A stretch of 38,065 nt of DNA from assembly GCA_028707875.1 (NCBI GenBank), contig JAQWAC010000007.1:1-38065 (forward strand), written 5' to 3'. The notes beneath the pieces were generated by a model. That model was given only the letters and a program-made list of their open reading frames with translations. It was not told where the DNA came from and searched no databases. A program made the position numbers and the translations under genes. The DNA is from Candidatus Peribacteraceae bacterium (GTDB taxonomy: Bacteria > Patescibacteriota > Gracilibacteria > Peribacterales > Peribacteraceae). Each line of letters begins with the position of its first letter. Positions within the stretch are counted from its first letter, which is position 1. Below are positions 6,226 through 29,965 of the stretch, one piece after another.

Positions 6226-6233
6226 GTGCACAC

Positions 6234-11372: not shown

Positions 11373-11376
11373 GCGA

Positions 11377-11445
11377 ATTGATAATGGGTAATGGTTAATG
11401 GATAATGAATTTGATTATTTTCCATTATCCATTATTCATTCATTG
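11377..11445. repeat. ATTATCC inverted repeat in the cyclophilin-gltX gap (family D, copy 2)
   Basis: The left arm (11377-11409) carries AATGGGTAATGGTTAATGG and the right arm (11420-11445) carries CCATTATCCATTATTCATT. It fills the gap and stops at the gltX ATG. The frame upstream of gltX is open through the repeat and reads PLSIIHS, the same peptide as in the glycosyltransferase insert. Confidence 0.75.
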
Positions 11446-12915
11446 ATGCGCACACGATTCGCCCCCTCCCCCACCGGCTTCCTCCATGTTGGAGGCCTGA
11501 GGACCGCGCTCTACGCCTATCTGATCGCCAAACAGACGAAGGGGAAGTTCCTGTTGAGGATAGAAGATACCGATCAGGAGCGGAGCGTCCCCGGCGCTGT
11601 CGAAAACATTCTCTCCACGCTCCATTGGGCGGGACTCCATCCCGATGAGGGCGTGATGATGCGGAAAGGCATCATGGCGCAGGAGGGAACTAAAGGACCG
11701 TACATCCAGTCGGAACGCACGGAGATCTACAAGAAATATGCCGACGAGCTCCTCGCGAAAGGCCTCGCGTATCCCTGCTTCTGCACTCCCGAACGGCTTA
11801 CGAAGATGCGCGATGATCAGTCTGCCCGCAAACAGGCACCCATGTACGACCGTCATTGTCTGAGCCTCCCGAAAAAAGAGATCGAACAGCGTCTCGCGAA
11901 AGGGGATCCGCATGTGCTGCGTCTCCACGTGCCGCACGAGCGTACGATCACGTATGAGGATGAAATCCGCGGAGCCATGTCTTTTCAGGGGCACACCATT
12001 GACGATCAGGTACTCCTGAAGAGCGACGGCTTCCCCACCTATCACCTCGCACATGTGGTGGATGACCACCTGATGGAAATCGACCTTGTGATCCGCGGCG
12101 AGGAGTGGCTCAGCTCCACACCCAAGCACCTGCTCCTCTTCGAACTCTTCGGCTGGACCCCGCCGAAGTACGCACACGTGCCTCTCTTGTTGAACAAGGA
12201 CCGGACGAAGCTGAGTAAGCGCCAGAGCGCAGTTGCGGCGGAGGATTACATTAAAGAAGGCTACCTCCCAGAAGCACTCCTGAATTTCCTCGCGCTCCTC
12301 GGATGGAATCCCGGCTCCGAGCAGGAGATGTTCTCTCTCCCGGAACTTGCCGAAGCATTCAGTCTGGAACGCGTACAAAAAGCGGGCGCCATCTTCGACA
12401 CGGAGAAGCTCCTGTGGCTGCAGGGACAGTGGATTCGCCGGCTCTCGCCGCAGGATTTTGCGGAGCGCATCCGGCCGATGGTTGTTGCACGCTTTCCGGA
12501 CGCCGACCAAGATCCGCATTTCCCGGAGCGTGCCGCACTCATTCAGGGGCGCGTGACGTTCTTCAGGGAAACACCGGAAATGCTTGGATTCTTTTACGAA
12601 GAGCCGAAGGTGACCATGGGGCTCCTCGCAAATCCCAAACAGAAAGTGACCCCCGAACTCCTTCCGAAGGTTCTGAAAGCTCTCGCAAAGACACTCGACC
12701 TCCTTCCGGACAACAAGTGGACGATCGACACACTCAAAGAAGCGGTTCAGAAGACCATGAAGAAAGAGGAACTCGGACAGGGACAAATTCTCTGGCCCCT
12801 TCGTGCCGCACTCACCGGCCTCCCCTTCAGCCCCGGTGCCTACGAGGTGGCCGCGGCACTCGGAAAAACGGCGACGATGGCCAGACTGGTCTCCGCGCAA
12901 AAAATTGCAGCCTAA
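11446..12915 (+). CDS. gltX: Glutamyl-tRNA synthetase
   Basis: This class I synthetase charges tRNA-Glu, and in some bacteria tRNA-Gln as well. The 489-residue product begins MRTRFAPSPTGFLHVGG with the HIGH-type motif HVGG (14-17). The KMSKS-type motif KLSKR is near residue 255. A YPCFC segment followed by Y and C at MYDRHC resembles the zinc site of some GluRS enzymes. The C-terminal half is the helical anticodon-binding domain. Length is normal. An upstream ATG at 11398 would translate the family D repeat, so I reject it. Whether the enzyme is discriminating cannot be told from sequence alone. Confidence 0.96.
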   Translation: MRTRFAPSPTGFLHVGGLRTALYAYLIAKQTKGKFLLRIEDTDQERSVPGAVENILSTLHWAGLHPDEGVMMRKGIMAQEGTKGPYIQSERTEIYKKYADELLAKGLAYPCFCTPERLTKMRDDQSARKQAPMYDRHCLSLPKKEIEQRLAKGDPHVLRLHVPHERTITYEDEIRGAMSFQGHTIDDQVLLKSDGFPTYHLAHVVDDHLMEIDLVIRGEEWLSSTPKHLLLFELFGWTPPKYAHVPLLLNKDRTKLSKRQSAVAAEDYIKEGYLPEALLNFLALLGWNPGSEQEMFSLPELAEAFSLERVQKAGAIFDTEKLLWLQGQWIRRLSPQDFAERIRPMVVARFPDADQDPHFPERAALIQGRVTFFRETPEMLGFFYEEPKVTMGLLANPKQKVTPELLPKVLKALAKTLDLLPDNKWTIDTLKEAVQKTMKKEELGQGQILWPLRAALTGLPFSPGAYEVAAALGKTATMARLVSAQKIAA

Positions 12916-13013
12916 GAGGAAGATTCCTGTCCCCCTTCAAGGCATCTGCTTCTTCCGAAAGGGCAAATGTCCGCACGCAGCCGAAGCCGCTGGCTCGCAA
13001 CAGGAGACGGACG

Positions 13014-13019
13014 TACAAT
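13014..13019 (+). promoter_or_regulatory. Putative -10 box for the two-helix membrane protein
   Basis: TACAAT ends 7 bases before the ATG at 13027. The leader would be about zero bases, so the mRNA may be leaderless. No good -35 is seen. Confidence 0.5.
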
Positions 13020-13026
13020 CCCCGGC

Positions 13027-13491
13027 ATGACGAACTCCACCGACCTCGAAATCGAAGTGAAGACGGAAAGCAGCAAGGCCATCATCACCGGAAAGACCTC
13101 CGTGCCGTTCCGTACCTTCGTCGGCCTTGTCCTTCAACGCAAAGTGCTCCAACTCTTCAAACAATGGGGGGAGGAACCGATCATCCTCAGCAGCGAGCTC
13201 CTCACCGGCCTCGCAAGTGCTCCGCAGGATTCTCCCGAGAACCGCGCGCATCTGATCATTGTGACACTGGGAGTCGGAACACTCTTCGGCATCTTCGCAC
13301 TCGCGGTCGGGGTTTCCATCCTCCTCGTCTTCAATATCACGCTGGGACTGCGCGAGTTCATGCTCATCGCGGGAGGACTTGCCGGTGTTGCGATTCTTGT
13401 CGGTTTGCTGGCCAAATTTCAACGAGTGAGCCGCGGCCAGAAAGTGGCGGATACGATGGAGAAAGTGGCGCAGTTTCTGTCGAAGAGATAG
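13027..13491 (+). CDS. Unknown membrane protein with two helices
   Basis: The product is 154 residues and I do not recognise a family. A soluble N-terminal region of about 75 residues (MTNSTDLEIEVKTESSKAII) is followed by two hydrophobic segments (HLIIVTLGVGTLFGIFALAV and EFMLIAGGLAGVAILVGLLA) separated by a short loop. A basic amphipathic tail (FQRVSRGQKVADTMEKVAQF) ends the chain. The frame is open from 12967, but the ATG at 13027 has a close -10-like box and no repeat or low-complexity start. It lies between gltX and murB on the same strand. Confidence 0.7.
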   Translation: MTNSTDLEIEVKTESSKAIITGKTSVPFRTFVGLVLQRKVLQLFKQWGEEPIILSSELLTGLASAPQDSPENRAHLIIVTLGVGTLFGIFALAVGVSILLVFNITLGLREFMLIAGGLAGVAILVGLLAKFQRVSRGQKVADTMEKVAQFLSKR

Positions 13492-13500
13492 CTCAAAAAG

Positions 13501-13638
13501 GTTTAGGATAAGGACAAGGATTGGGAGAAAATACGTGCTCCCTGTCATGTCATGGTGAGCTCGTCGAACCATGACATGAGTTGTCGCCCTTCGACGAACT
13601 CGGAGTGACAACTCATAAAGTGCTATCCGCTTATCCTT
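13501..13638. repeat. Nested inverted repeat with two overlapping hairpins before murB
   Basis: Outer words GGATAAGG (13506-13513) and CTTATCC (13630-13636) enclose two perfect hairpins. Hairpin 1 is TCATGTCATGGT (13545-13556) with ACCATGACATGA (13568-13579). Hairpin 2 is ATGAGTTGTC (13576-13585) with GACAACTCAT (13607-13616). They share ATGA at 13576-13579, so they cannot both form fully. The loops contain CTCGTCGAA and TTCGACGAACTC, inverse-related words. Confidence 0.7.
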
Positions 13639-14514
13639 ATGACCATTCAGGAAAACATCCCTCTGGCCCCCAAGACCACGATGCGCATCGGCGGCACCGC
13701 GCGCCACTTTGCGGAGCTGACGACCAAACAGGACGTGGAAGAGGCTTGGAAGTTCGCGAAAGAGAAAAATATTCCATTGATCGTTCTGGGTGCCGGAGCC
13801 AACACCGTCTTTGCCGACGGGACAATTGAGGCGCTTGTGGTGCGCATCCTCGCGCAGGAGATCGAAGTGAGCGGAAACACCGTCCGTGCGGATGCGGGCA
13901 CCATACTCGCCACGCTCGTCGCCACCCTCGCCAAGCGCGGACTCGATCTCTCAACCCTCGCCGGCATCCCGGGCACCGTGGGGGGTGCGATCTTCGGGAA
14001 TGCGGGACAGGGGCCGCAGGGAGTCTGGATCGATCACTATGTGCAGACCGTCACCGTCTTTGCCGGAGGAGAATGGAAGACACTTTCAAAAGATGAGTGC
14101 CGGTTCTCCTACCGTGAAAGTGTCTTCAAGCATTGGCCGCCGCCTGTTCCGCCCATCCTCTGGAAAATCACGCTCACCGTTCCGTCGCGTGCGGCGGACG
14201 ATATCGAGAAAGATATTACGATGCTCCTTAGGAAACGCTCCGTCGCGCAGCCCAATTTCCGGACGGCCGGCTCCTGTTTCAAGGCGCAACCGGACGGCAC
14301 GCCGGCATGGAAACTCATCGAGGCGGCGGGACTGAAGGGATCGAAGATCGGTGATTTGCAAATCAGCGACAAACATGCGAATTTTCTCATCAATACGGGC
14401 TCCGCATCGTTCGACGACCTTCTGAAAACCGTGGAGAAAGTCCGCGCATCTGTGACACAACCCCTGCACCTGGAGATGCGACTGATCGGACAGGACGGAC
14501 GAGCAATTTCCTAA
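13639..14514 (+). CDS. murB: UDP-N-acetylenolpyruvoylglucosamine reductase MurB
   Basis: MurB is a cytosolic FAD enzyme that reduces UDP-GlcNAc-enolpyruvate to UDP-MurNAc with NADPH. The 291-residue product has MRIGG (15-19), the FAD-binding GAGANTVFAD (51-60) and IPGTVGGAIFGNAGQ (110-124), YRES (158-161), the catalytic serine segment GSCFKAQ (211-217) and ISDKHANFLIN. A glutamate in LEMRLIG fits the C-terminal catalytic acid. It appears to be the shorter, type II form. It lies downstream of the nested repeat and converges on ssb. Confidence 0.95.
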   Translation: MTIQENIPLAPKTTMRIGGTARHFAELTTKQDVEEAWKFAKEKNIPLIVLGAGANTVFADGTIEALVVRILAQEIEVSGNTVRADAGTILATLVATLAKRGLDLSTLAGIPGTVGGAIFGNAGQGPQGVWIDHYVQTVTVFAGGEWKTLSKDECRFSYRESVFKHWPPPVPPILWKITLTVPSRAADDIEKDITMLLRKRSVAQPNFRTAGSCFKAQPDGTPAWKLIEAAGLKGSKIGDLQISDKHANFLINTGSASFDDLLKTVEKVRASVTQPLHLEMRLIGQDGRAIS

Positions 14515-14652: not shown

Positions 14653-15510
14653 TCAAAACGGAAGATCCTCCACTTTGATCTCCGACGTATACTGCACTTC
14701 CGGCATTTCCGGTGAAGCGGCTGCAACGGGAGCGCCTTCCTCCCGTACGGATGACGTGGAGCGGCGTTGCGCACTCATCTGAACGGCTTCGGAAGCGATT
14801 TCGCTCTTCACGCCGAGGAGCGAACACTGATCGGCGATGATTTCGGTCGTCGTGCGCTTCTGGCCCGCCTGCGTCTCCCAGCTGCGCGTCTGTACGCGGC
14901 CGGAGACGAAGACACGACTGCCTTTGCGGATCACTTTGCCCGCCTCCTCCGCGAGTTCGCCCCAGATGACGACGTTGTGGAACTCCGCGCGCTCCTTCAT
15001 CTCGCCGGTGGAGCGTTCCTTCCAGCGATCATTGGTGGCCACTCCCAGCGTCATCACCTGCTTGCCGCCGGTGGTCGTGCGGATTTCCGGATCACGCGTC
15101 ACATTTCCGACGATATCCGCGCGATTCACGGCGCCCAGCGTGAGTTTGGCACCGTCCGGCGCCTTGATCTGTCCGTCTTTGGGGTCGAGGAGAATCATAT
15201 CGAGCGCAACAATCTTCGTCTTGGATCGTTTCTCGCCTGATGTCTGATCATCCCAGGAATCCGTCTGGAGTCTGCCGCCGATGAAGATGTGCGAACCGGG
15301 ACGAACGTACTGTCCGGCAAATTCCGCCATGGATCCCCAGAGGGTAACGACCTGAAACGCCTTGCCGGTGAGCATTTCGCCCTGTTCCGAACGGAAAGAA
15401 TAGGGCACGACGAGATTCAAATCCGCCACGTTCGTGCCGCCGGGTGTTTTGCGGACTTCGAGAGGCTGTGTCTGATAGCCGATGATGTTGACCCGATTGA
15501 GAGAGAACAT
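14653..15510 (-). CDS. ssb: Single-stranded DNA-binding protein with two OB folds
   Basis: SSB coats single-stranded DNA during replication and repair. This 285-residue chain has two tandem OB domains: OB1 about 1-112 (SLNRVNIIGYQTQPLEVR, then VTLWGSMAEFAGQYVRPGS) and OB2 about 126-233 (AVNRADIVGNVTRDPEIR, then VVIWGELAEEAGKVIRKGS). The parallel motifs show an internal duplication. A flexible tail follows and ends in VEDLPF, the acidic partner-binding tip. Most bacterial SSBs have one OB fold and act as tetramers; two per chain suggests a dimer, as in Deinococcus-Thermus. The ATG at 15510 fits the OB1 start; the frame is open to 15591. Confidence 0.93.
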   Translation of the reverse strand: MFSLNRVNIIGYQTQPLEVRKTPGGTNVADLNLVVPYSFRSEQGEMLTGKAFQVVTLWGSMAEFAGQYVRPGSHIFIGGRLQTDSWDDQTSGEKRSKTKIVALDMILLDPKDGQIKAPDGAKLTLGAVNRADIVGNVTRDPEIRTTTGGKQVMTLGVATNDRWKERSTGEMKERAEFHNVVIWGELAEEAGKVIRKGSRVFVSGRVQTRSWETQAGQKRTTTEIIADQCSLLGVKSEIASEAVQMSAQRRSTSSVREEGAPVAAASPEMPEVQYTSEIKVEDLPF

Positions 15511-15575
15511 GCCTGAAAGGGGGAAGTGGAAGTAAAGGATGCCACGTGCCTCGTCACGATGTGCCGAGTCGAAGC

Positions 15576-15611
15576 GTGTACAGATGTACACCGATGTTTG
15601 CGTCGACGCAA
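15576..15611. promoter_or_regulatory. Two palindromic operator-like sites between ssb and the exported-protein operon
   Basis: GTGTACA (15576-15582) and TGTACAC (15585-15591) form an inverted repeat with a 2-base spacer. Seven bases further, TTGCGTCGACGCAA (15598-15611) is a perfect 14-base palindrome. Both lie in the 253-base divergent gap. They look like dimeric regulator sites; the regulator is unknown. Confidence 0.45.
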
Positions 15612-15763: not shown

Positions 15764-18700
15764 ATGAAACTCTTGTCATCCCTCCGCCGATTTTTCCTCT
15801 ACGGTTTGATCACGCTCTCACTTGGGGGAATGGTTGGCATGGCCACGGCTGCGGAATTGATGCGTGTGGATGATGCGACGGATTTTCAGACCGTGGAGCA
15901 GACGATCGAGAAGCTGAAACAGGATATGGAAAAATCGATGTGCGGCGCCTGGGATTTTGAACAGCACTTGAAGCCCGTCGGAGGCGGGACGGGATCGGCG
16001 GGAAGCGCGGCTTCCGGCGAAACGCGGATCATCAGGGTGGAGGGGTTCCCGGGACGCGAGGGGAAAGTTTTTGGTGCAGCGGGCTCAACCGGATCGGCAG
16101 GATCGTCTTCTTCCCGGAAAATTCCCCTCCCGGTCCTTAAGAGCGGACTCGCGAATCGCGAGGAGAACGCGGGAAACAGCATGAACGGCTTCCTCTTCCC
16201 CGAAAATACAACGGGCGTCACCACCGCCTGCGAGGTGGACAAGAAGGATGTGCAGACGAACTGCGTTCCGAAATTCCCCTACATTCATGATCCCTACTAC
16301 GATGGCGACCCGTCCTGCATCGCCCGTCAGGATCTGGACCCGCCTCCTCCAAATGGCGCTTTCGAAAAAAGATGCACAAAGATCTGCGATGAGATGAACA
16401 ACTGGATCAGAGATGTCATCATTGACAATCGGTCCGGGGACTTTGTCTGGAAAGCTGAAAGATGCCGCCGTCAGGGATGCGAGTGGAAGGGGGATGAACA
16501 GGGAAGGGCGGCGATCCCCGAGCACGGGGAGTACCCCCAATGTTTTGATTACTCCGTCGATCCGCCGGAGGATCACTGCACCACGACAATGGTGTACTGC
16601 TGCACGGACGCATATATCTCCGATATCGAGAATGCCAACTGCATTCCCTGCCAGGGTGACGGAACCAATCAGGCCGAGGGCGGTTGCCGTGTCGGGAAAT
16701 ATGCCTATCCCAACAATGCCAAGTATGTTTCCTTCTACCGGAAATATGTCGGAAGTTTCAAACGGGAAAAAGTGGAGAAAAAGCCCGAGAAAGACGTCAA
16801 TGAGATGAAAAACCTGATCGTGAAGTGCTACAGCCGCTACACGGAGTTTGATCCGAAACTCCAACGCACCACCCCTCCCGACCGACACTGCGTTTTGGAT
16901 CTGGAATCGAGTTCCGCCCGATCCGCAACGTCCGCAGGGACCTCCAACCTGGAAATTTTCAGGAATATGAAAGATACCCAGAAGGGGCTCGGAAAAAAGT
17001 GGGGGCAGGATTCAAACTTCCGGGATCCCGCTTACTCCTCAAGCAGCCGGCCCACGCTCAATGATTTGTGGGTCACGAATCTGGGCGGCGCTTTCTCCAT
17101 GCTGAACGGAGAAAAACAAGAGGAGCAATTTAAGGACGCACCGCTCACGCTTCTCTCCCTCGATTCCACTTCCGTCATCCCCACTGCGCAGATGACGGAA
17201 GATATCGTCTTCTCAAGCGGCAGCCTGATGCGCGCCTTCGATGATACGATTTCCATCTCGAACCCCGGCGGGGGAGTCAGCACGGGGGGGATGAATTATG
17301 AGCGTCCGGGCCGTCGCACGATCACTGAGTGGTGGCAGGAACAGGAGACGGAAATGCACAAGCTTTTCACCCCGCCGATCCTCCGCGTGCTTCTCCCCAC
17401 CCCGCAATCGGAGAATCTGGTTTTCGACCATCCGCTCCTCAATCCCGCCGTCACCTCCCGGGACAGACCGAGAGCGACGGATCAGCAGTCACCGGGAGTG
17501 AAGGCCATCGACATTCAACTTCATGCCGCACCCGATGATCTTGCGGGAGAAGTTTCCTCGTATCTCATGGACTCGCTCCTTCTGCACATCGAGGAAGAGC
17601 CCGTTACTGTCGTCGTCCCCCTCGCGTCTCCGGTGGAACTCCGCGCGCTGGCGCAAGGATGGCGATCGTGGGGGAAAGAGCGTGAGGCGTTGGACGAGGA
17701 TTCCGGCGAAGCCGAGGCGATTGCAGCCAAGCTCGAAAAATACGCGAACAAAGTCGATGATGTGCGGGCCCTCCGGGGGGAATTGCTCCAATACGTCGGC
17801 AAGCTTTTGAAATTCCAGAAAGACATGATGTCCAGCATCACAAATTGGCACAACAGCAACACCTCCGCACTCGACAGCTATAACAGCCGGTGGCAGGAGC
17901 GTTTTGCGCTCAAGCCGAAGTGGGAGGGAATCCAGCGTATTTACCGGAAATTCAACGATGAAACGAACTTCCCGTGGTGCCGCAATGATCGCTTCACCAC
18001 GCCGGTCTACTCTCTTCTGGATTACTGGATGCCGAAACAGTCCAATCCGCGTGATCTCGCGCTTGATATTGATGCGCCGCCTTCGGAAGGCTCAAGCGCG
18101 GATGACCTTCCCCGTATCCGTGTGGCTCCCATGCCCGATCTCGTCTACGACTTCACAATGTTGCGTGTTGCGAGCGGAACTGTGAAGCTCCCCGTCCTGA
18201 AACCGATGCAGATCCGCCTTGATCTCCATTTGCTCCGGCCACCCACGTTCAACCAATCAGCGGAAGAACTCTCCGATCGGATGGATTACATCAGCGGACT
18301 CCCGAATGAGCTCCCGGCCGTTCCCACGATTTTCAAGGAAGTGAAGGACAAGTTGCTCCCGTCGGAGGTCATTAAAAGCGCGCCCCCGACCGTTCTTTCT
18401 GAGTCGCTGGATCCTCCGGCCGATTATATCGAGGGGGAAATGACACGAATGGAGGAAATGCTGACGAAGATGGATGAGACTCACAAGAAATTCTGGGAAT
18501 CCCTCACGGAAGACCGCAATGCAAGCATCGATAAATGGAATTGCCTCACTGTTGACGCTCTCCCCTGCATCCATGTGGAGATGGATCTCCTGGAACGCTT
18601 CGCGCGTATCGGCGCCCGTCCCGCCGTTTTTCTCTATGAGGATTTTCTCTCCGTCGGTTCCCGGCGCCCTCTCTCTCCCTTCGGGGCCAATTCCTCCGAT

Positions 18701-19021
18701 CCGTTCTTTGTCCCCGATCCCATAAAATCCGCTCCCCCTTGCCCGCGTGCCGACTGGTCCTGTCAGATCGTCAATGCGGAAAAGACGAAGCCGCGGTCGG
18801 GATGGCATACCGAAGGACCGGATAATGAGCACCTGCAGGAGGACCGGCAAAAGCTGAATGAGCGCATGCGAACGGAAACAATCCCGAAGAACGAGGACAA
18901 TGCCTTCCCCCTCGTCGCCCCTCCCAACGATCTCCTTCCCGCTTTCGCCGCGCCGGCCCCCTATCTGTTCCCCACTCCTCTTTCCTCTTACCCTTCGTCC
19001 TCCTCTCGGTCCTCCCCATGA
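15764..19021 (+). CDS. Large exported cysteine-rich protein, operon gene 1
   Basis: I do not recognise a family. The 1085-residue product has a signal peptide (MKLLSSLRRFFLYGLITLSL, cleavage likely after TAA near residue 30). Gly/Ser linkers follow (TGSAGSAASG, GSTGSAGSSSS), then a Cys-rich block at about 155-320 (RCRRQGCEWK, DHCTTTMVYCCTD, NCIPCQG). The second half is helical and Pro-rich, and the tail is Ser-rich (SSYPSSSSRSSP). I count 22 cysteines, an even number, consistent with disulfides outside the cell. There is no transmembrane anchor, sortase motif or lipobox. Its stop overlaps the next start (ATGA). It probably exits through Sec. It may be a surface or envelope structure; function unknown. 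Confidence 0.8.
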   Translation: MKLLSSLRRFFLYGLITLSLGGMVGMATAAELMRVDDATDFQTVEQTIEKLKQDMEKSMCGAWDFEQHLKPVGGGTGSAGSAASGETRIIRVEGFPGREGKVFGAAGSTGSAGSSSSRKIPLPVLKSGLANREENAGNSMNGFLFPENTTGVTTACEVDKKDVQTNCVPKFPYIHDPYYDGDPSCIARQDLDPPPPNGAFEKRCTKICDEMNNWIRDVIIDNRSGDFVWKAERCRRQGCEWKGDEQGRAAIPEHGEYPQCFDYSVDPPEDHCTTTMVYCCTDAYISDIENANCIPCQGDGTNQAEGGCRVGKYAYPNNAKYVSFYRKYVGSFKREKVEKKPEKDVNEMKNLIVKCYSRYTEFDPKLQRTTPPDRHCVLDLESSSARSATSAGTSNLEIFRNMKDTQKGLGKKWGQDSNFRDPAYSSSSRPTLNDLWVTNLGGAFSMLNGEKQEEQFKDAPLTLLSLDSTSVIPTAQMTEDIVFSSGSLMRAFDDTISISNPGGGVSTGGMNYERPGRRTITEWWQEQETEMHKLFTPPILRVLLPTPQSENLVFDHPLLNPAVTSRDRPRATDQQSPGVKAIDIQLHAAPDDLAGEVSSYLMDSLLLHIEEEPVTVVVPLASPVELRALAQGWRSWGKEREALDEDSGEAEAIAAKLEKYANKVDDVRALRGELLQYVGKLLKFQKDMMSSITNWHNSNTSALDSYNSRWQERFALKPKWEGIQRIYRKFNDETNFPWCRNDRFTTPVYSLLDYWMPKQSNPRDLALDIDAPPSEGSSADDLPRIRVAPMPDLVYDFTMLRVASGTVKLPVLKPMQIRLDLHLLRPPTFNQSAEELSDRMDYISGLPNELPAVPTIFKEVKDKLLPSEVIKSAPPTVLSESLDPPADYIEGEMTRMEEMLTKMDETHKKFWESLTEDRNASIDKWNCLTVDALPCIHVEMDLLERFARIGARPAVFLYEDFLSVGSRRPLSPFGANSSDPFFVPDPIKSAPPCPRADWSCQIVNAEKTKPRSGWHTEGPDNEHLQEDRQKLNERMRTETIPKNEDNAFPLVAPPNDLLPAFAAPAPYLFPTPLSSYPSSSSRSSP

Positions 19022-19902
19022 GAATGTGCCCGCTGCTTCTTTTCGGCTGCTCCGTATTTATGCTCACCTTCACCGCCGGGGTGGAGTCCCTCTCGGCACA
19101 AGGTTCTTCCTCGTCCGTCAGCCCCGATGCTTCCGCTTGCAGATCCGTGGTGGAAAAAGAGTATGCAAGAGAACAGCGCCTTTTCCGAAGCGTTCTCCTT
19201 GGGCACCCGAAAGCGAAAGATACCCCCGTCGGCGACGTGCGCTACGACAAGAAGGGAACTGCCTGGATCAAGACGAAAAAGAATGAATGGCATTCCGTCG
19301 CCAAAGGGTATGAGAGAACGACCTGGACGGACACTCAGATGGATGGCCAGGACGAAATGAAGGACCGCCGCGGCATTGTCGAGACGCGGGGCGTTCTCAC
19401 ATCCGATCTCGTCCCTTACTTCGCGCAGGCATTCCGCGCTCTGGAATGTCGCACGGAATACATCTGCGGCGTCGCTGCGTATTCCACAACCGTCGGCTCG
19501 AAGGAATCGAAAAAGACAAGGATTGCCGTTCCCGGATGTCTCTCTCCGGAACTGGACACGTACCCCGCCTGCCAGCTGGCCTCCGCGAACGGGAAAAAAC
19601 CCGATGAAGGAGATGTCCGCTCCTACTGCCAAAGCATCAAAAATGATTTCCTGACCCGTGAAGAGAATCTTCTGAAGCTCCTGACGGACTATGATGCCGC
19701 ATCCCGCTCACTCCTCCAGCTCTCCGGAAATTTTGATCTCTTCCTCGAAACGTGGCGATGGTCGATTGCGCATATTCTTGAGCAATCAACGAGTCTTGCG
19801 GGTTTCTTCAAACGTATCCCCTGCTTCATAGCAAGTTGCGACGAATCCCCTGTCTCTTCCGGCTCGTCCTCCTCCCACAGAGGATCCTCCGCCGCTCCGT
19901 AG
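19018..19902 (+). CDS. Exported protein, operon gene 2
   Basis: The 294-residue product starts in the ATGA overlap with gene 1. Its signal peptide is MRMCPLLLFGCSVFMLTFTA, with cleavage near SLSAQ (about residue 28), then SSSS. The middle has LECRTEYICG and several further cysteines (GCLSPEL, YPACQL, SYCQS). A helical segment (REENLLKLLTDYDAASRSLL) precedes IPCFIASC and a Ser-rich end (SSGSSSSHRGSSAAP). It shares its order of elements (signal peptide, Ser run, an EC-containing helix, a long helix, late cysteines) with gene 3, hinting at distant paralogy. No known domain is seen. The function is unknown. Confidence 0.75.
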   Translation: MRMCPLLLFGCSVFMLTFTAGVESLSAQGSSSSVSPDASACRSVVEKEYAREQRLFRSVLLGHPKAKDTPVGDVRYDKKGTAWIKTKKNEWHSVAKGYERTTWTDTQMDGQDEMKDRRGIVETRGVLTSDLVPYFAQAFRALECRTEYICGVAAYSTTVGSKESKKTRIAVPGCLSPELDTYPACQLASANGKKPDEGDVRSYCQSIKNDFLTREENLLKLLTDYDAASRSLLQLSGNFDLFLETWRWSIAHILEQSTSLAGFFKRIPCFIASCDESPVSSGSSSSHRGSSAAP

Positions 19903-19903
19903 C

Positions 19904-20755
19904 ATGTCTTTCCTCCGCGTTCCCTTCCGGCTCTCGTGGTTGCTCCATCCGTTGGGGATCTCGTGCGTGCTCCTTGTTCTCTGCCTCTTGCTCGCGCTCT
20001 CTACTCCGTCTTTCCGCGCCTCCTCCTCCGCAAGACTGGCACAATTGTTACCCACCGGAAGCAGTTCATCATCGGTCGCCGTCGACAAGTTAAACCCTCT
20101 CCTCTCCCCCTGCTCACGATACGACACGAGGTTTGAGAACCTGCCGTTCAAATCGAAGAACTTCAATGACTGGCCGAAGGAATATCACGATAAGGTGCAG
20201 GCGGTTGTGGAGGAGCATCTGAAATTCTCGTCGCAAAACGTGAGATGCAGCTCCGGAGATCTCGACTCCTTTCTCCAGCCACAGTCCAAGCTCCAGGCAT
20301 TGGCTCAAAGCCTACCCACCTGGAAGGGGCCGAACAGTCCATCATTGAAGCAGACGGATGTCGGGGTGGTATTGATGGAATTTCTCAATGTGTATGAGTG
20401 CGCGCTGAAGGAGCGCTTCTTCTTCCTTCCCCTTGATTCCCTTCAGTTTCTGAAACAACAGTCGTCCGGGCGGAGCAGTTCGGCGATGCCGCACTCCTCG
20501 CTCCTTCCGGAAATGGAGCAGGAGCTTTCCATCATCCGACGGGAGTTGGCCCTGTCCCGCAAAACACTCACCCGCACTCTTGCGATCATCGGCGGCATGA
20601 ACCGCCTCCTTCCTCTGGATCTCGAACTGCAGTGCATGGCGGGGAGTTCCATGGACCTCCGGAATGCGTCGGCTCTCGCAGCGGAGGCGAGTGCGTGTCT
20701 TCCCCGCGTCTGGAATGCCAAAGACTCATTCCGCGATCTCAAGGAAAGTCCATGA
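19904..20755 (+). CDS. Exported or membrane-anchored protein, operon gene 3
   Basis: The 283-residue product begins 1 base after the gene 2 stop. Residues 1-35 hold a basic start and a strong hydrophobic stretch (ISCVLLVLCLLLALS), either a signal peptide or an N-terminal anchor. A Ser run follows (TGSSSSSVAV). Later come FLNVYECALKERFFF, a long helix (EMEQELSIIRRELALSRKTL), LELQCMAG and a C-terminal ASACLPRVWNAKDS. No catalytic motif is visible. The likeness to gene 2 in layout is noted there. The next gene begins inside its stop codon (ATGA), so translation is probably coupled. Confidence 0.72.
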   Translation: MSFLRVPFRLSWLLHPLGISCVLLVLCLLLALSTPSFRASSSARLAQLLPTGSSSSSVAVDKLNPLLSPCSRYDTRFENLPFKSKNFNDWPKEYHDKVQAVVEEHLKFSSQNVRCSSGDLDSFLQPQSKLQALAQSLPTWKGPNSPSLKQTDVGVVLMEFLNVYECALKERFFFLPLDSLQFLKQQSSGRSSSAMPHSSLLPEMEQELSIIRRELALSRKTLTRTLAIIGGMNRLLPLDLELQCMAGSSMDLRNASALAAEASACLPRVWNAKDSFRDLKESP

Positions 20756-23331
20756 CCCGTCTTCTTCTCGCGATTATCGGCATGCTCTCCTGCGCCCTCC
20801 CCGCTCTCGCGGCGGAGGACCCCTCTTTCAAACTCTACGAGCGCATGAAAGAGATCACCGCCAAAGATCAACTCCTCGGGGATTCGGAGGAGGATGTCCG
20901 CACATTTGTCGCGAATGTTCTGAAAGATGCGAAAGACAAAAAACCTCTGAAGGCGGAGGATGTGAAGCTGGCGCTTGAGACGCGCGGATGGGAATTCTGC
21001 ATCGCCCGGGAGGGGCTGTTCGGCTCGTGTACCGATCTCTATGGCAGAATTCAGGATACCGCGGCCAGAGTATCGAGGTTCCGCACGCTGGGTCGCGACC
21101 TTCTTTCCATCGCCCAAGGATATGAAATGGGTGTCGACGGTCTGATGGGGGAGCCGCTCGGCATCACGACCAAGTTCTCGGCAATCGTCCATATCTGGCA
21201 GAGCGGTGCCGATCATCTGTTCTCACCTTCAAGAGAATTGCTCGTCCGTGCGGCACCGTTGCCCGATAATATGGATTTCTCAACGCTGGAAAAGAATCTG
21301 AAGGACCTTAAAGAAGACGCCACCAACGTCATCTGGCGCTACCGCTACGGTCTCAGAGCCGTGCAGGAGCAGAAGGAAGAGGGTAAAGCGGAGAACTGCG
21401 AAGACAAGAAGGGAAATGGAGAGCTCTTCAAGACGCGAACGCAACGATGGTGCGATGTGGAACGGGCGCTTCAGTCCGTCATCGGCGCCCTCCCCACGGA
21501 CCCCGCAAAATATGACCCGCCCATCGAACCCAACCAAACCGTCCTCTTCCCGACGCAACCCCTGGAGGATGTCCCCAACGCCACCGTGTGGATGACTGCA
21601 AAAATCGTGGATGGAAAAATCACCGGTGATGCGGGCTTGAGCTGGGATATCCCCATTGAAACCGTTCTGCCGGAAATTCTGCCGGACGACGGGGCGGGGG
21701 ACTGCATGGCGGAAGTGAACAACAAAGATTACTGCGATATGGTGAAGGATAAGAAAATCCTCCCCGGAGGTCTCTACCCCGATCCTCCGCCGGAACCGAA
21801 AACCTGGCAGGGCATCTGCGCACTCCCGCTCTCAAAAGGAAGTTATCTCTGCCGTCCGCGTCAGGGAGGGGACTGCTCCGAGGAAGTCAATCGCGATGCT
21901 GCCTCCGGCACCGCCCCGTACCCCGGTTCAAGTTCCCGTTCTTCGTCATCGGAAAGAGGGAATCCGCGCGCCATCGTCCTCTCACGATGCATGCCGGAAG
22001 CATATAAGTATCCCACGGCCCAGAGATTGCCCGGCCCGGATATCTGCCGTCTCGGCACATGGCGAACCGCCATCAGCAGTTCCTCTTCCTCGACGAACAG
22101 GGATTCGGCACAGAAGGACCCCGACCTGCGACCCGACGAATGTTCCGGCTGCGCCGTTGATATTTACTGCCAGGAAACCTGTCCGGGAAATCACACCGGC
22201 ATGACCACGCCCAAAGATGCGAACGGGGTCATCCAAATCTGTCTGACAAGCAGTTACCCAAAGACTTCCCTTCCCGCAAATCTTCTCCATGAACTCACGC
22301 ACGCCCAGCAATTATGTCAATTGGGGGCGGAAGAGGCGAGTGCCATGAACAGCGTAGAGAGCTGTTGCACCATGGAGCATGACGCTTACATCGTTCAATG
22401 TAATATTGCGGCGGAAGAAGGCATCCTGGATAAGGTGCATGTTTCGATCGATGAATGCGCAAGTTTGATGGCCAACACAAGCTGCGAAATTCTCTATGGT
22501 AAAAATGCATGCACCCCGCTTCCCGGGAGCAGCGGAAGCAGCAGCTCCCGCGGCGAAGACAGGTCCCAGAAACTGAAGGAGGCGCTCAAAAAAGCCTGGC
22601 AGGAAAAAGATCGCCTGCGTCCCGATGCCCCCTCCTGTGAAAAACTTATCAACGATCTTGGCAAACTGGAGCCACGTGCCGCCGCGATAAAAGAAGGACT
22701 GAAGTATTCCTGCAAACCGGGCTGTCAGACGAAGTATGAGAACACCATCGGGAACAACCTTTGTTACGTCGATCAGTGTACCGAGGAATCCGTCGAAGGA
22801 TCCCGTCTCACTCCGGGGCGCATGCCTTTGACAGCGGAGGATCAGACCTTCCCGTGGGACGCCTGCGAAGCTCCGGATCCGAAAAACGGCGCCATACTCG
22901 GCCTTCCCGCCGACACGAGCACTTCCCTCCCCTCCTATAATCCCCGCCGCCTTCTCCAGGCTTTGGACATCGCCATTTGCCAGTCGAATGGAATGCCGCC
23001 CGCAACTCCTCCGGTTCTCTGCAGCTTCCTTTCGTCGCGACGTCTCGATGCCCCTCTCGGAGATTACCTGAGCAATGCGATTGATCTCGGAACACAGCCG
23101 GGGGAGAGCCTCACTGCCACCGCCGGGCTCGAAGAAATGGCTCCGAGCCTTGGGGCACGCATCGGTACGACAATGTTTTCGGGCTATTTGAAACAATCGC
23201 TGAACACCCTGAAAGACCTCCTTCAGGCGGCCAACGGCCTGATGTCACAAATGGAAAAGGTCCGGTTCCCGCTTGTCGCCTGTCCGCGCAATGCGACTGA
23301 GGGAAACATCTGCAGCCAACTCAATCCATGA
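20752..23331 (+). CDS. Exported protein with a zinc-protease-like HELTH motif, operon gene 4
   Basis: The 859-residue product has a signal peptide (MTRLLLAIIGMLSCALPALA, cleaved before AEDPS). The N-terminal part (about 21-330) is mostly helical. Cys-rich segments and Ser linkers (SSSRSSSSERG) follow, then CSGCAVDIYCQETC. LLHELTHAQQLC comes next with H513, E514 and H517. E542 in MEHDAY is a plausible third zinc ligand, as in gluzincins. The rest alternates Ser linkers and helices, with more cysteines. It is thus a candidate secreted metallopeptidase; no exact family is recognised and activity is inferred only from the motif. An in-frame ATG at 20632 lies within gene 3, but the signal peptide fixes 20752. 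AAGGAAAG lies shortly before it. Confidence 0.8.
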   Translation: MTRLLLAIIGMLSCALPALAAEDPSFKLYERMKEITAKDQLLGDSEEDVRTFVANVLKDAKDKKPLKAEDVKLALETRGWEFCIAREGLFGSCTDLYGRIQDTAARVSRFRTLGRDLLSIAQGYEMGVDGLMGEPLGITTKFSAIVHIWQSGADHLFSPSRELLVRAAPLPDNMDFSTLEKNLKDLKEDATNVIWRYRYGLRAVQEQKEEGKAENCEDKKGNGELFKTRTQRWCDVERALQSVIGALPTDPAKYDPPIEPNQTVLFPTQPLEDVPNATVWMTAKIVDGKITGDAGLSWDIPIETVLPEILPDDGAGDCMAEVNNKDYCDMVKDKKILPGGLYPDPPPEPKTWQGICALPLSKGSYLCRPRQGGDCSEEVNRDAASGTAPYPGSSSRSSSSERGNPRAIVLSRCMPEAYKYPTAQRLPGPDICRLGTWRTAISSSSSSTNRDSAQKDPDLRPDECSGCAVDIYCQETCPGNHTGMTTPKDANGVIQICLTSSYPKTSLPANLLHELTHAQQLCQLGAEEASAMNSVESCCTMEHDAYIVQCNIAAEEGILDKVHVSIDECASLMANTSCEILYGKNACTPLPGSSGSSSSRGEDRSQKLKEALKKAWQEKDRLRPDAPSCEKLINDLGKLEPRAAAIKEGLKYSCKPGCQTKYENTIGNNLCYVDQCTEESVEGSRLTPGRMPLTAEDQTFPWDACEAPDPKNGAILGLPADTSTSLPSYNPRRLLQALDIAICQSNGMPPATPPVLCSFLSSRRLDAPLGDYLSNAIDLGTQPGESLTATAGLEEMAPSLGARIGTTMFSGYLKQSLNTLKDLLQAANGLMSQMEKVRFPLVACPRNATEGNICSQLNP

Positions 23332-24917
23332 TGAAGCGTTCCCTGCTCCTCATCGGCCTGCTCTTCATCCCCCTGACGGCATTCTCCGCGGAACAGGGCG
23401 ACCGCTACGCCGATTTGACTCCGGTCTCGGAGCACTACGTCAAAAAGGTCGTGGACCGTGCGAAAAAAGGAATCGAATATGCAAAGGGCGCCGCTGCGGG
23501 GGGAGGGGGAAGTCCGGATTCCTACCTCAAAATCTCTTGGGCGATCCGGCTGGCCTCCGCGGTGCTCGCCACGGTGGATACCGATCTCCGTCTTACGCAA
23601 CAGGAGCGGGACCTCATTGAAAATTCTCCCTGTCTCCGTGTCGATACGCTCATCCTTGAAGGTTGGATGGAACGCGCCCGGCAGGAGAAAATCAAAGCGA
23701 TGGAGAACAGCAAACCGACCACCCTCTCCCACCTCATTTCTCTCCAACGGTACCTGAACGGACGATATAAAGCGCTCCTTGCCGGCGCGCGTGACCCTTC
23801 CTTCATCGATAAAAACGAAGGCATGCTCAACGATTTCGACCCTCCGCCCTACTGGTGTTGCATGGGGGAGAAAGTGTCTACGGAAGACGAGGAAGACGCC
23901 GGCACATGTCAGGAAATAGCGCAGTCTCAGACTTCCTACTGCCTCATATGGGGCGGGAGCATCCACAAGCGTCTCTATGCGTGTAAGGAAGCCGGTTGCA
24001 CGGCGGCGGGAGGAGGAGAGGACGCACAACCCCTCTGCCCCTTCACTTCCGATTACCTTCCTCCGACGACCGCGGGGTACGGTTGCGATCTCAGTGTTCT
24101 GGAAAGGTACAAAGACAAAGCCTACGACGGACTGAAGAAGGAATATGAAGCGCTCGATGCGCTCATAAAGGATCGGGACACGTATATCAACGACATCGGT
24201 TCCGTCAAAGGAACGGTCGCAGATCTTTACGCGGCTCTCGGACTCACCGAACCGAATCTGGCGAACTTTCAAAAGGGAAAGAGCAGCGAACGGACACACC
24301 AAAAGCAGGAGGGATGCGTTGCACTGGACAAACAGTGGCCCGAAGGCATGGCCCTCCTGGAACCTCGGCACCCGTTCACTCTCGAAAAACAAGAGACGAC
24401 CATTCTCAACCGTCTCCACCAGCTTTGGCAGGGGTGGGGGGCTTTCCGTGTTCCGCCCGACTACCTGAAGCCCGCCAAAGACCTTTTGGATTCCAATGAG
24501 AAGAAGGAGAAGGAGTTGGAACTGGAAACGGGGCTTTTCGCTTTGCCGTACCGCGGAGCGAAATGGATTTCTCGCTCCTATCTTCAAAAAGAAAGCGTGC
24601 GGCAACTGGGAGAAGACAGCACCCTCATTGCAAAGATCTCCGATGGCCCCCTCCAACTGATTGATCTCTATCGCCCCTTGCGGGACCAGACGTACTCATT
24701 CAGACAGTCGGTGCAGAGCTCCGGCAAGGGGGTGCGCGCCTTCGCAAAAAATCTGGCGTACTTCCTCCGGCGCTCCTGCATCTTCCGCCCCTGCAACACG
24801 TCGTTGGACCGCACTCTGAAAATCCTTTTTGAAGACACCTGCTTCCCGTATGCGGACGGGCTGAAGACCGGCAACCCCAAGGCATACGAGGACTGCAAGA
24901 AGAATGCGGGGATCTAG
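23328..24917 (+). CDS. Exported cysteine-containing protein, operon gene 5
   Basis: The 529-residue product overlaps the gene 4 stop (ATGA) and ends the operon. The signal peptide is MMKRSLLLIGLLFIPLTAFS, cleaved near FSA. A Gly-rich linker (AAAGGGGS) leads into helices. A Cys-rich block follows at about 178-245 (YWCCMGEK, SYCLIWGG, YACKEAGC), resembling the RCRRQGC block of gene 1. The C-terminal half is helical with late cysteines (RRSCIFRPCNTS, EDTCFPYADG). There is no anchor, lipobox or enzyme motif. I cannot name a family. The shared Cys/Ser style and tight coupling suggest the five products act together outside the membrane. Confidence 0.78.
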   Translation: MMKRSLLLIGLLFIPLTAFSAEQGDRYADLTPVSEHYVKKVVDRAKKGIEYAKGAAAGGGGSPDSYLKISWAIRLASAVLATVDTDLRLTQQERDLIENSPCLRVDTLILEGWMERARQEKIKAMENSKPTTLSHLISLQRYLNGRYKALLAGARDPSFIDKNEGMLNDFDPPPYWCCMGEKVSTEDEEDAGTCQEIAQSQTSYCLIWGGSIHKRLYACKEAGCTAAGGGEDAQPLCPFTSDYLPPTTAGYGCDLSVLERYKDKAYDGLKKEYEALDALIKDRDTYINDIGSVKGTVADLYAALGLTEPNLANFQKGKSSERTHQKQEGCVALDKQWPEGMALLEPRHPFTLEKQETTILNRLHQLWQGWGAFRVPPDYLKPAKDLLDSNEKKEKELELETGLFALPYRGAKWISRSYLQKESVRQLGEDSTLIAKISDGPLQLIDLYRPLRDQTYSFRQSVQSSGKGVRAFAKNLAYFLRRSCIFRPCNTSLDRTLKILFEDTCFPYADGLKTGNPKAYEDCKKNAGI

Positions 24918-25042: not shown

Positions 25043-28000
25043 ATGAAAGCCTCGGATTTCGTTCATCTTCATTGCCACTCCACGTACTCCCTTCTGGAGG
25101 CGCTCCCGACCACGGAGGAAATCGTGGAGCGAGCGAAGGAGTTGGGGGAGAGCGCCGTCGGCATCGCGGATAAGGGCTACACCTACGGCCTCGTGGAATT
25201 TTATCTGGCTGCAAAGAAAAAGGGGATGAAGGCGCTCTTGGGACTGGAAACGTATGTCGCCACCCGCACACGCTTTGATCAGGAGAGCGGCACGGATACC
25301 AAACGCTATCCGCTGGTGCTCATGGCGGAGAACGAGGAGGGATACCGGAACCTGCTGGAACTCGCCACACACGCCGCACTGGAAGGCATGTATTACAAGC
25401 CGCGCGTGGACGCCGAACTTCTCGGGAAGTACGGCAAAGGCCTGATCGCCCTTACGGGACCCATTGGGGGCGCCATCCCGCAGGCGGCGCTGGCGGAGGA
25501 CGGCAAACGCATCGAGGAGCTCACGGAGCAGTACCGATCCTTCTTCGGGAAGGACAATCTCTACTTCGAGCTCATGGATCTGCCCAACGTCACGGGACAG
25601 GCGGAGGTGAATCAGCAGCTCATCCGCTGGGCGGAGAAGCTGAATGTCCCGCTCGTTGCGACCTGCTCCAGTCACTACTGCCGTCCGGAAGACGTGGAGG
25701 CGCATGATGTGCTCCTCTGCATCCAGAAGAACGCCAATATCTCGGATCCCAGCCGCTTCTCCATGCGCGACAGTGACTTTTCCATGCGACCCTTCTCCGA
25801 GCTGGAAAAAGTTTTCGCCCATGTGCCCGCGGCGCTGGAAAACACACGCGTCATCGCCGACCGCTGCAATGTTTCCTTTGAATTCGGGAAGTTTCACATT
25901 CCGCATTACCCGTTGCCCAAAGGAACGACTGAGGCGGACGAACTGAAACGTCTCGCGGAAGAAGGCTTCAAGAGACGCTTTCCCAAAGGTTCACCGGAAC
26001 ACCACACCCGCCTGGAATTCGAGCTTTCCGTCATCAATCAAGTGGGATTCGCGGGGTACTTCCTCATTGTTTCCGACTTCGTCAACGAAGCCAAACGCCG
26101 CGGCATCACCGTCGGGCCCGGCCGCGGCTCCGCCGCAGGATCGTTTGTCGCGTACTGTCTGAATATCACCGGACTGGATCCGCTGGAACACGGGCTCTTC
26201 TTCGAGCGCTTCCTCAATCCGGAACGCATCACGATGCCCGACTTCGACATCGACTTCGCCGATACGCGCCGCGACGAGATTCTGGAGTACGTCCGCGGGA
26301 AGTACGGCTCGGATCACGTCGTGCAGATCTGCACATTCGGGACGCTGGCGGCCCGTGCCGCGGTGAAGGACGTGGGACGCGCCTACGGCGTGCCGTTTCT
26401 GGAGATGAACGCTCTCGCCAAGCTCATTCCGGAACGTCCGGGCACCACACTGGGAGAGGCGCTTGGCACGCAGGAACTCAAGACCGCCTACGAGAGCAAC
26501 GAGACATACCACAAGATCATCGATACCGCCCTGCGGCTGGAAGGCAAGGCGCGCCACGTATCCGTCCATGCCTGCGGCGTGATCATCACGGAAAAGCCGA
26601 CGGTCCGGTACTCCGCTCTCCAGCGCGCCCCGAAGAACGAGGAAATCATCATCACCCAGACAGCCGCAAAACCGCTCGAGGCGCTCGGGCTTCTGAAAAT
26701 GGACTTCCTCGGTCTCATGAACCTCACGGTGATCCAGACGACACTGGAAATCGTGGAACGCGTCCGCGGCGAGAAGATCGACATCGCAACGATTCCGCTG
26801 AATGATGCAAAGACGTTCACGCTCCTCCAGCGCGGCGACACCACCGGCGTCTTTCAGCTGGAATCCGCGGGCATGCGCCGATACCTCAAGCAACTCAAGC
26901 CCACGGAATTCGGCGACATCACCGCCATGGTCGCTCTCTACCGTCCGGGCCCGATGGACTGGATTCCCAGCTTCATCAAGCGCAAACACGGGCAGGAAGA
27001 AGTGAAGTACGTGCATGATGCGCTCAAGCCCATCCTGCAGCCCACCTACGGCATCGGCCTGTATCAGGAACAGATCCTCCAGATCGCGCAGGTCTTCGCA
27101 GGATTCTCTCTGGGGGAGGCGGATATTCTCCGCCGCGCCATCGGAAAGAAAATCCGCGAACAGCTCGAAGCACAGCGGGAGAAATTCGTTCAAGGGGCCA
27201 TCGGGAACGGGTACGCAAAACCTCTCGCCGAACAAATCTTTGATGACGTCATCACGCCATTCGCCGGATACGGCTTCAACAAGTCCCACGCGGCGGGTTA
27301 CGCGCGCATCGCCTACGAAACCGCCTACCTGAAAGCCCGCTATCCCACCGCATTCATGGCGGCGCTCCTCTCCAGTGATGCGCAGAATACGGAACGCGTC
27401 ATGATCGAGATCGAAGAGTGCCGGCAAATGGGCATCGAAGTCCTGCCTCCTGATATCAACGAATCGCTCCGGCACTTCACCGCGATCGACCGCGAGGGTT
27501 CCGTCTGCGGTTCCATCCGCTTTGGGCTTTCCGCCATCAAGGGCATAGGGGACAGTTCCGTGCTCCAGCTCATCGCCGCGCGGGAAGCCGGCGGGAAGTT
27601 CACTTCGATCGAGGACTTCGCCAGACGCGTGCCGTCGAAGGTCCTGAATAAGAAGCTCCTCGAGGCATTGGCCAAATCCGGCGCACTGGATTCGCTGGGC
27701 AAGCGCCGCACCTTCATCGAGCACTACGACCGAATAGCGGACTTCTCCAAGGCGAGCGGCGACGTCAGCAGCCAGCAGGGTGATTTATTCTCGCAGGTGA
27801 GTGGCATGGACTCCGCAACCATTGAATTCCCGAATACTCCCGAAGCCTCTTCACAGGAAAAACTCCTGTGGGAGAAAGAAACTCTCGGCATGTACGTCTC
27901 CAGCCACCCGCTCGCAGGTTTGCGGAAGTACATCGGCAAGAAGGCACAGCTCATCGCGGATCTGACGGAAAAGGAAAATGGAAAGAAGGTGAAACTGGCA

Positions 28001-28813
28001 GGCCTCATGGAGGGGCTGAAGAAGATCACGACCAAGAAAGGCGAGACGATGGCCGTGGTGACGCTGGAGGACCCCACCGGCAAGATCGAAGTGACACTCT
28101 TCCCGCGCGTCTATGCCGAGTGCAGCCAGATTCTGGAACAACCGGATACCATCCTCGTGATCGGCGGCACAATGGATCTGCGGGCGGGACAGCTGCAAGT
28201 GCGCGCCGATGCGGTCAAGCGTGCGGCGCTCTCGACGATGATCGCCCATGCAAAGACAGAGGGATTCTTCGATGAAGAAGAAGCGCGGCACGGTATCGCA
28301 TTCGCCCGCAAGCGGCCGGAGGAGACCGAACAGGTGGAGATGCTCGATGAGGAGGGGAATGTCATTGCGGGGGAGACGGTGATCATCGCGGAAAACGCGC
28401 GGGCCGGCGATGATCTGACAGGCCCGCTCAACCAGTGGATCCTGAAAGGCATGCCGGTGGATGATCTTCTGACTGCGTGCGGATTCACCGCCGCCGAGGA
28501 AAAACCGAAACCCAAGACACCGGTGCAGAAGAAGAAATCTCCGCGCGAACTGGGGGAGGGGGAAGAAGCTCCATCGGCGCGCACCTTCTCCCCCACGCAT
28601 ATTTCCATCCACACCATCGAGTTGCCTGAGCGTGCGCCCAAGAAGCTCCTGCTCGACCTCAAAAAAGTGCTGGAGACCTTCCCGGGGAAAGAAAAAGTGC
28701 AGCTCAAGATCGGCGAGCAGCTGATTCCTCTCCCTCTCACCATCAACATGTCGACGGTATTGGAGAAGAAGATTGAGGAGGTGCTGAGCGCCCATGCCTC
28801 ACCGACCGCCTGA
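25043..28813 (+). CDS. dnaE: DNA polymerase III alpha subunit DnaE
   Basis: DnaE is the replicative polymerase, a C-family enzyme. The 1256-residue product begins with a PHP domain (FVHLHCHSTYSLLE, with metal-type H8, H10 and H12). The palm carries GPGRGSAAGS and PDFDIDFADTRRDE (near residue 398), with catalytic aspartates in the DFDIDF core. Fingers and a helix-hairpin-helix region follow. An OB domain (KVKLAGLMEGLKKITTKKGE, near 985-1065) and a C-terminal tail complete it. The length is about that of well-known DnaE1 proteins. It has its own -10-like box and shares its last base with the tsaC start. holB of the same holoenzyme is at 1823. Confidence 0.97.
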   Translation: MKASDFVHLHCHSTYSLLEALPTTEEIVERAKELGESAVGIADKGYTYGLVEFYLAAKKKGMKALLGLETYVATRTRFDQESGTDTKRYPLVLMAENEEGYRNLLELATHAALEGMYYKPRVDAELLGKYGKGLIALTGPIGGAIPQAALAEDGKRIEELTEQYRSFFGKDNLYFELMDLPNVTGQAEVNQQLIRWAEKLNVPLVATCSSHYCRPEDVEAHDVLLCIQKNANISDPSRFSMRDSDFSMRPFSELEKVFAHVPAALENTRVIADRCNVSFEFGKFHIPHYPLPKGTTEADELKRLAEEGFKRRFPKGSPEHHTRLEFELSVINQVGFAGYFLIVSDFVNEAKRRGITVGPGRGSAAGSFVAYCLNITGLDPLEHGLFFERFLNPERITMPDFDIDFADTRRDEILEYVRGKYGSDHVVQICTFGTLAARAAVKDVGRAYGVPFLEMNALAKLIPERPGTTLGEALGTQELKTAYESNETYHKIIDTALRLEGKARHVSVHACGVIITEKPTVRYSALQRAPKNEEIIITQTAAKPLEALGLLKMDFLGLMNLTVIQTTLEIVERVRGEKIDIATIPLNDAKTFTLLQRGDTTGVFQLESAGMRRYLKQLKPTEFGDITAMVALYRPGPMDWIPSFIKRKHGQEEVKYVHDALKPILQPTYGIGLYQEQILQIAQVFAGFSLGEADILRRAIGKKIREQLEAQREKFVQGAIGNGYAKPLAEQIFDDVITPFAGYGFNKSHAAGYARIAYETAYLKARYPTAFMAALLSSDAQNTERVMIEIEECRQMGIEVLPPDINESLRHFTAIDREGSVCGSIRFGLSAIKGIGDSSVLQLIAAREAGGKFTSIEDFARRVPSKVLNKKLLEALAKSGALDSLGKRRTFIEHYDRIADFSKASGDVSSQQGDLFSQVSGMDSATIEFPNTPEASSQEKLLWEKETLGMYVSSHPLAGLRKYIGKKAQLIADLTEKENGKKVKLAGLMEGLKKITTKKGETMAVVTLEDPTGKIEVTLFPRVYAECSQILEQPDTILVIGGTMDLRAGQLQVRADAVKRAALSTMIAHAKTEGFFDEEEARHGIAFARKRPEETEQVEMLDEEGNVIAGETVIIAENARAGDDLTGPLNQWILKGMPVDDLLTACGFTAAEEKPKPKTPVQKKKSPRELGEGEEAPSARTFSPTHISIHTIELPERAPKKLLLDLKKVLETFPGKEKVQLKIGEQLIPLPLTINMSTVLEKKIEEVLSAHASPTA

Positions 28814-29433: not shown

Positions 29434-29434
29434 A

Positions 29435-29463
29435 TTTACATATAACCATAAATATGGTACAAT
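29435..29463 (+). promoter_or_regulatory. Strong sigma70-type promoter with an internal palindrome
   Basis: TTTACA (29435-29440) and TACAAT (29458-29463) are 17 bases apart in an AT-rich patch. The spacer and -10 edge contain ACCATA-AA-TATGGT (29445-29458), an operator-like inverted repeat. A leader of about 24 bases to the ATG at 29494 follows, so unlike its neighbours this mRNA should have a leader. Confidence 0.65.
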
Positions 29464-29493
29464 TAATATTAATATCCATTACTCTTTCCCAAA

Positions 29494-29904: not shown

Positions 29905-29953
29905 ATATCCTCACTTCCTGATCCTTTTCCTTCGTCCGGATGGCAAAGATCGG

Positions 29954-29959: not shown

Positions 29960-29965
29960 TGACGT

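Follow-up and report, generated by a model that had tools for sequence, protein, structure and literature searches.

The locus considered here raises the question of what is built by five consecutive genes whose products match no named family. The window, namely the whole stretch of DNA that was analyzed (38,065 nucleotides), comes from a Candidatus Peribacteraceae genome of 1.32 Mb that is 98.6% complete. Here, gene A (positions 15764-19021; a 1085-aa ORF), gene B (19018-19902; 294 aa), gene C (19904-20755; 283 aa), gene D (20752-23331; 859 aa as counted from the coupled ATG, with an alternative upstream GTG start at 20632 in the ORF list) and gene E (23328-24917; 529 aa) all lie on the forward strand. 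A preliminary description, made from the sequence alone, had presented these genes as coupled through ATGA overlaps or a 1-base gap and as taking up about a quarter of the window. Indeed, examination of the ORFs confirmed ATGA overlaps at the A/B, C/D and D/E junctions and a gap of 1 base at B/C, with the block accounting for 9,154 of the 38,065 bases (24%). A promoter scan found none.

The product features noted earlier were likewise borne out. Each of the five proteins begins with a signal peptide or a hydrophobic anchor, as do the proteins of relatives, judged by hydropathy only, the N-terminal segment of the gene C product being a membrane anchor that assumes a lipobox-like form in some relatives (L032, L035, L036, and L037). 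Cysteines number 22 in A, where they enrich the N-terminal part, 10 in B, 7 in C, 34 in D and 14 in E. In alignments of Peribacteria sequences, cysteine is the commonest near-invariant residue in A-E, accounting for 11, 8, 5, 13, and 8 such columns, respectively, with those in B and C being invariant. No VKOR was found in the genome from which the window derives. The impression that no product belongs to a nameable family also held, as no Pfam or NCBIfam model reached its cut-off with any of A-E, the closest match being that of DUF6782 to D (16.3 bits, with the cut-off at 27; E 0.0059). A PHROG and known-family search returned one weak match for B (9e-5, to a family of unknown function) and none above cut-off, PDB sequence-profile searches with A, B, D, and E gave no credible or significant match, and a tblastn search of 50,697 phage records with B and D as queries revealed no homolog. 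An AlphaFold2 model of D (ma0c3bf6d58e0; mean pLDDT 66) had no significant match in the PDB.

The distribution of these genes was considered first in family f1, corresponding to Peribacteria (in the NCBI taxonomy, class Candidatus Peribacteria in Candidatus Peregrinibacteriota). A, D, and E were each found in about 31-32 of the 59 relatives searched (31 in the case of A), and the genomes containing any of the three all belong to f1, except for one represented by a weak D match (1.7e-4). A search with an alignment of E found 33 loci in named genomes, nearly all assigned to Candidatus Peribacteria, Peribacterales or Peregrinibacteria. An E homolog sharing 29% identity was also seen at locus L083 (JAIPIN010000018.1), filed under a Kiritimatiellales genome and probably a misbinned Peribacteria contig. 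For the comparison within Peribacteria, 36 loci were retrieved, with synteny being judged on those operon-bearing loci uncut by a contig end. At such intact loci, family profiles revealed the A-B-C-D-E order on one strand in nearly every Peribacteria genus, with conservation extending over about 30 genera. An artefact, namely a set of ORFs antisense to ssb that had initially clustered with A, was excluded. The overlaps recur as well, with a -4 (ATGA) junction seen at 17 of 28 A/B, 7 of 28 B/C, 18 of 28 C/D, and 14 of 29 D/E boundaries, counts that are biased upwards because start choice favored proximity and hydrophobic N-termini; by estimate, random TGA stops would yield such an overlap at roughly 10% of junctions or less.

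The Peribacteria operon usually lies between murB/ssb and dnaE. In the window, ssb (14653-15591, reverse strand) and dnaE (25043-28813, forward strand; named by sequence reading) are the conserved left and right neighbors, both outside the unit, with a gltX-type tRNA synthetase gene and murB found further upstream and a Sua5/YrdC gene found downstream. Between the gltX-type gene and murB lies a 174-aa ORF (12967-13491, forward strand) without a Pfam match; about 17 relatives contain a family of similar-sized proteins at this position, and the window ORF falls outside that cluster. At the window edge, a 783-aa ORF (35697-38048, reverse strand) is also without a Pfam match.

The five-gene unit was next sought outside Peribacteria. 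A B profile run over 288 genomes of the class gave remote matches in families f9 and f11, and profiles built from Peribacteria only, when applied to the ORFs around these matches, recovered A, B, and C in order, followed by genes of D and E size; in f11, A and its companions are also found on separate contigs. A second B profile, run over the phylum, reached f16, f18, f20, f21, and f23, with a giant A match adjoining B in f16, f20, f21, and f23 (Peribacteria-only A profile, best 1.3e-15). That independent A and B profiles landed on neighboring genes provides the key control against coiled-coil artefacts. A followed by B-, C-, D-, and E-sized genes was identified in f2, f4, f9, f15, f16, f18, f20, f21, f23, f25, f26, f27, and f31, with profile matches for most genes and with D and E possibly fused in f31. 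The arrangement is less clear in f5. The A-B-C-D-E order is seen in about 14 families of the class. The flanks vary between families (ssb/dnaE, murD-like, uvrA-like) and the A-E order is constant.

With a broader B profile, matches were obtained in 121 of the 288 class genomes. Among the matches listed, 61 non-Peribacteria genomes contain both A and B; in 54 of these, B lies about 3-6 kb downstream of A on the same strand, in six it is on another contig and in one it is 45 kb away. As such, B is just downstream of A in 54 of the 55 same-contig non-Peribacteria genomes among the matches listed. A B match in another class (G331, 3.5e-4) corresponded to a transposase-like ORF and was set aside. 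Because iterated B and C profiles matched each other, non-iterated comparisons and gene position were relied upon. Profile-profile comparison of Peribacteria with distant families scored best when each protein was matched with its own counterpart (B, 7.5e-11; C, 2e-11; E, 1e-5; D, 2.5e-5), arguing firmly for the homology of B and of C, including gene C of the window, to their distant counterparts, and more weakly, from low similarity together with position, for that of D and E. A is found without adjacent B-E in the code-25 families f14 and f22, as well as in f6 and f29, indicating that A does not always need these partners nearby. Loci L145, L146, and L159-L161, in which TGA encodes an amino acid (f14 and f22), keep a giant A with no B-E beside it. 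Taken together, the five genes make up a single translation-coupled operon, itself conserved, for exported products that retain their cysteines. The dedicated unit suggested by the preliminary description gains support from synteny across Peribacteria and the wider class despite differing flanks; A-E are co-inherited and not unrelated singletons.

The part of A that reaches furthest is a core (17036-18793, forward strand; about residues 425-1010 in alignment A7) common to the giant SLH surface proteins of the class. Searches covering the class and samples of the phylum detected this A-core in 245 of the 288 class genomes (195 of 223 high-quality genomes; 152 of 175 genera), nearly always in one copy. 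Outside the class, essentially none of the about 343 phylum genomes sampled contained it, and a single match (G624, 3e-4) was set aside as weak. The AlphaFold2 model of the A-core (mean pLDDT 66) predicts a long helical hairpin with a 67-residue helix, short strands and a Pro-rich stretch, and had no significant match in the PDB and none among viral structures.

The proteins bearing this core differ greatly in length. When ORFs not cut by a contig end or TGA are considered, those of Peribacteria measure about 940-1380 aa and those found elsewhere about 2,600-5,850 aa, the f9 product being about 4,250 aa; in the f14 and f22 genes, TGA has to be translated as an amino acid, as it is by code-25 Gracilibacteria. 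Pfam searches of protein parts revealed SLH domains, mostly near the C-terminus, in giant A proteins of f9, f16, f23, f11, f5, and f26 (marginal in f26, at the cut-off), and FG-GAP in those of f9, f16, and f23, with some also matching Ig-like and TSP3 models more weakly. Many giants also have a C-terminal motif in common, around CxxCPC. Peribacteria A proteins gave no SLH, FG-GAP, Ig-like or TSP3 match and lack the CxxCPC motif; in the window, no SLH domain was detected by Pfam in any of A-E and A carries no other recognized anchor. The operon of the window is the compact Peribacteria form of a class-wide operon with a giant, mostly SLH-bearing A, and the surface location suggested earlier draws support from the SLH anchors of the related A proteins. 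An unrooted A-core tree splits Peribacteria from the giants. On visual inspection, the Cys-rich N-terminal part of Peribacteria A had seemed similar to the stretch preceding the core in giants, and this did not hold up when profiles were compared (E 0.11 and 0.41), no counterpart being detected there; a gingipain-like peptidase considered at the N-terminus of the f9 giants received no support from a PDB sequence search.

Large proteins of other kinds were also encountered in Peribacteria. At L107 (1505-9376, reverse strand; genome G194, f1), the protein at the D position spans 2,623 aa, contains four DUF4215 stretches and is 9.9% Cys, and the gene A product is just 756 aa; in this genus, D seems to have taken over as the giant. 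Elsewhere, contig C21 of Peribacteria genome G007 contains, at about 28389-30323 and separate from the operon, an open frame of 7,295 aa in which SLH was matched several times.

Considering the sequence evidence as a whole, a dedicated cell-surface apparatus, in which A would be the scaffold and B-E exported partners that anchor or assemble A, is the reading that we favor with moderate confidence. The A-E products would build a single cell-surface structure, with A as its scaffold or fiber and with the A-core, as modeled, offering a possible docking platform for B-E. C may tie the assembly to the membrane through its uncleaved-looking anchor or, in some relatives, its lipobox. Translational coupling usually links subunits, and coupled translation could here set the stoichiometry of A-E, with the conserved cysteines presumably locking the exported folds by disulfides. 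SLH domains bind cell-wall polymers, and those of the related A proteins would accordingly hold the cell wall, with the FG-GAP and Ig-like parts reaching outwards, probably for adhesion to partner cells. Since Peribacteria A lacks the SLH and adhesion parts, its companions, including the larger D, together with the Cys-rich N-terminus of A itself, probably do more of the structural work. At the same time, the genome considered here is rich in SLH proteins (26 matches), and the many other SLH proteins of Peribacteria genomes imply that an SLH-based surface is in place although A is without SLH. The same window includes secA (3490-6231, reverse strand), encoding the export motor that secreted A-E would need.

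Were B-E instead a machine dedicated to exporting or assembling A, its (giant) passenger, as in a single-substrate secretion system, then the fixed placement of A ahead of B-E, the coupling of these genes, the presence of one giant substrate per operon and the helical, exported nature of the companions would all be readily understood. Such a machine is nonetheless unlikely, given that the block is without an ATPase, a pore or a multi-pass membrane protein, with no ATPase, pilin, secretin or coupling protein being recognizable in A-E by Pfam and NCBIfam searches or, for A, B, D, and E, by PDB profiles. Moreover, all five products are themselves exported, and code-25 lineages and f6 retain the giant A with no B-E genes next to it.

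It might also be argued that the giant A proteins form a lattice, as true S-layer proteins do, with B-E serving as lattice accessories. This would agree with an A that bears SLH domains, is present in single copy and is near-universal in the class. With FG-GAP and Ig-like parts among their multiple domains, the giants are, however, more reminiscent of adhesins, the genomes encode many other SLH proteins and Peribacteria A is without SLH, such that we consider a lattice to be quite unlikely.

The preliminary description, which had noted one HELTH motif, had further suggested that the surface apparatus perhaps comes with its own processing protease. This part of the proposal did not survive, with the apparatus itself being supported. 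In the window, the HExxH metallopeptidase domain lies at 22129-22527 (forward strand), with HELTH at residues 513-517 (about 22288-22302) and a downstream CCxxE, the glutamate of which is a putative metal ligand. Peptidase_M76 matched four other D members weakly (best E 4.9e-4), and the best fold match of the region, also weak, was PprI (E 0.21). Among 29 Peribacteria D proteins, 16 contain an intact HExxH, five (L025, L026, L028, L038, and L053) keep the domain with the motif destroyed and eight are missing the domain. At L044, the domain is found in gene A (10870-14376, reverse strand; about residue 121) rather than in D, representing a transfer between neighboring operon genes. No HExxH was present in any of the 22 D counterparts at the more distant loci examined. 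Most simply, then, the domain is a Peribacteria insertion that in places has been retained without its catalytic motif, and in the proposed structure it would be an optional add-on. A secreted complex for proteolysis, made up of a protease (D) and of carriers or inhibitors (the other products), could call upon the intact motif and downstream glutamate, as well as the weak M76 and DUF6782 matches; it is rendered improbable by the absence of the domain from D at all 22 distant loci examined and by its decay, loss or relocation within Peribacteria, as a function that is lacking outside this group and is sometimes dead or moved is not the core function of the operon.

Finally, that five unrelated surface proteins stay together only through conserved gene order around ssb-dnaE, as the conservation of the flanking genes within Peribacteria might suggest, was already disfavored and is highly improbable, since the same five-gene order occurs among different flanks in other families and the translational overlaps persist.

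Returning to the favored surface apparatus, how Patescibacteria attach to other cells is a long-standing open question, discussion of which has so far been dominated by pili. The single-copy A-core, present in about 85% of the genera of the class and all but missing from the other phylum genomes sampled, stands out as a strong candidate for a device of the cell surface that defines the lineage. We tentatively raise the possibility that a single-copy giant with a class-specific core and four exported partners form a new envelope structure that defines the class and probably serves to hold partner cells, with Peribacteria having a form without the giant. In practical terms, A-E represent a concrete set of genes to localize and image, and the Peribacteria version, being naturally small, could be expressed and its structure solved.

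A literature search, with subscription papers and preprints largely outside its reach, yielded no description of the five-gene operon, and no pilus, S-layer or secretion operon that is known corresponds to the one in the window. Comparison with known systems nonetheless offers four points of reference. Peptidase M76 (Atp23) and DUF6782 share with most Peribacteria D proteins an HExxH and a downstream glutamate and cysteines; the similarity is limited to weak profile matches, that to DUF6782 falling below the cut-off, and operons outside Peribacteria yielded no such domain. SLH-anchored surface proteins (PF00395), such as S-layer proteins and large adhesins, resemble non-Peribacteria A, which carries SLH domains together with FG-GAP and weaker Ig-like and TSP3 parts, whereas A of the window is without SLH, and neither the A-core nor B-E could be matched to a described family. 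In the related lineage of Candidatus Vampirococcus lugosii, giant membrane proteins with DUF11 and integrin-type domains have been suggested to act in host attachment (PMC8080830); the text consulted presents no operon or common core for them. Of the same lineage as the window is Candidatus Peribacter riflensis, for which the available portion of the report describes large Cys-rich exported proteins, including a 14-gene cluster, with an average length of 1,655 aa and about 7.2% Cys, and suggests a role in attachment (PMC4736985). As compared by description, the five proteins of the window are similarly exported, Cys-rich and without assigned function, and differ in being of 283-1085 aa with about 2-4% Cys and in belonging to a gene set of fixed order that extends across the class.
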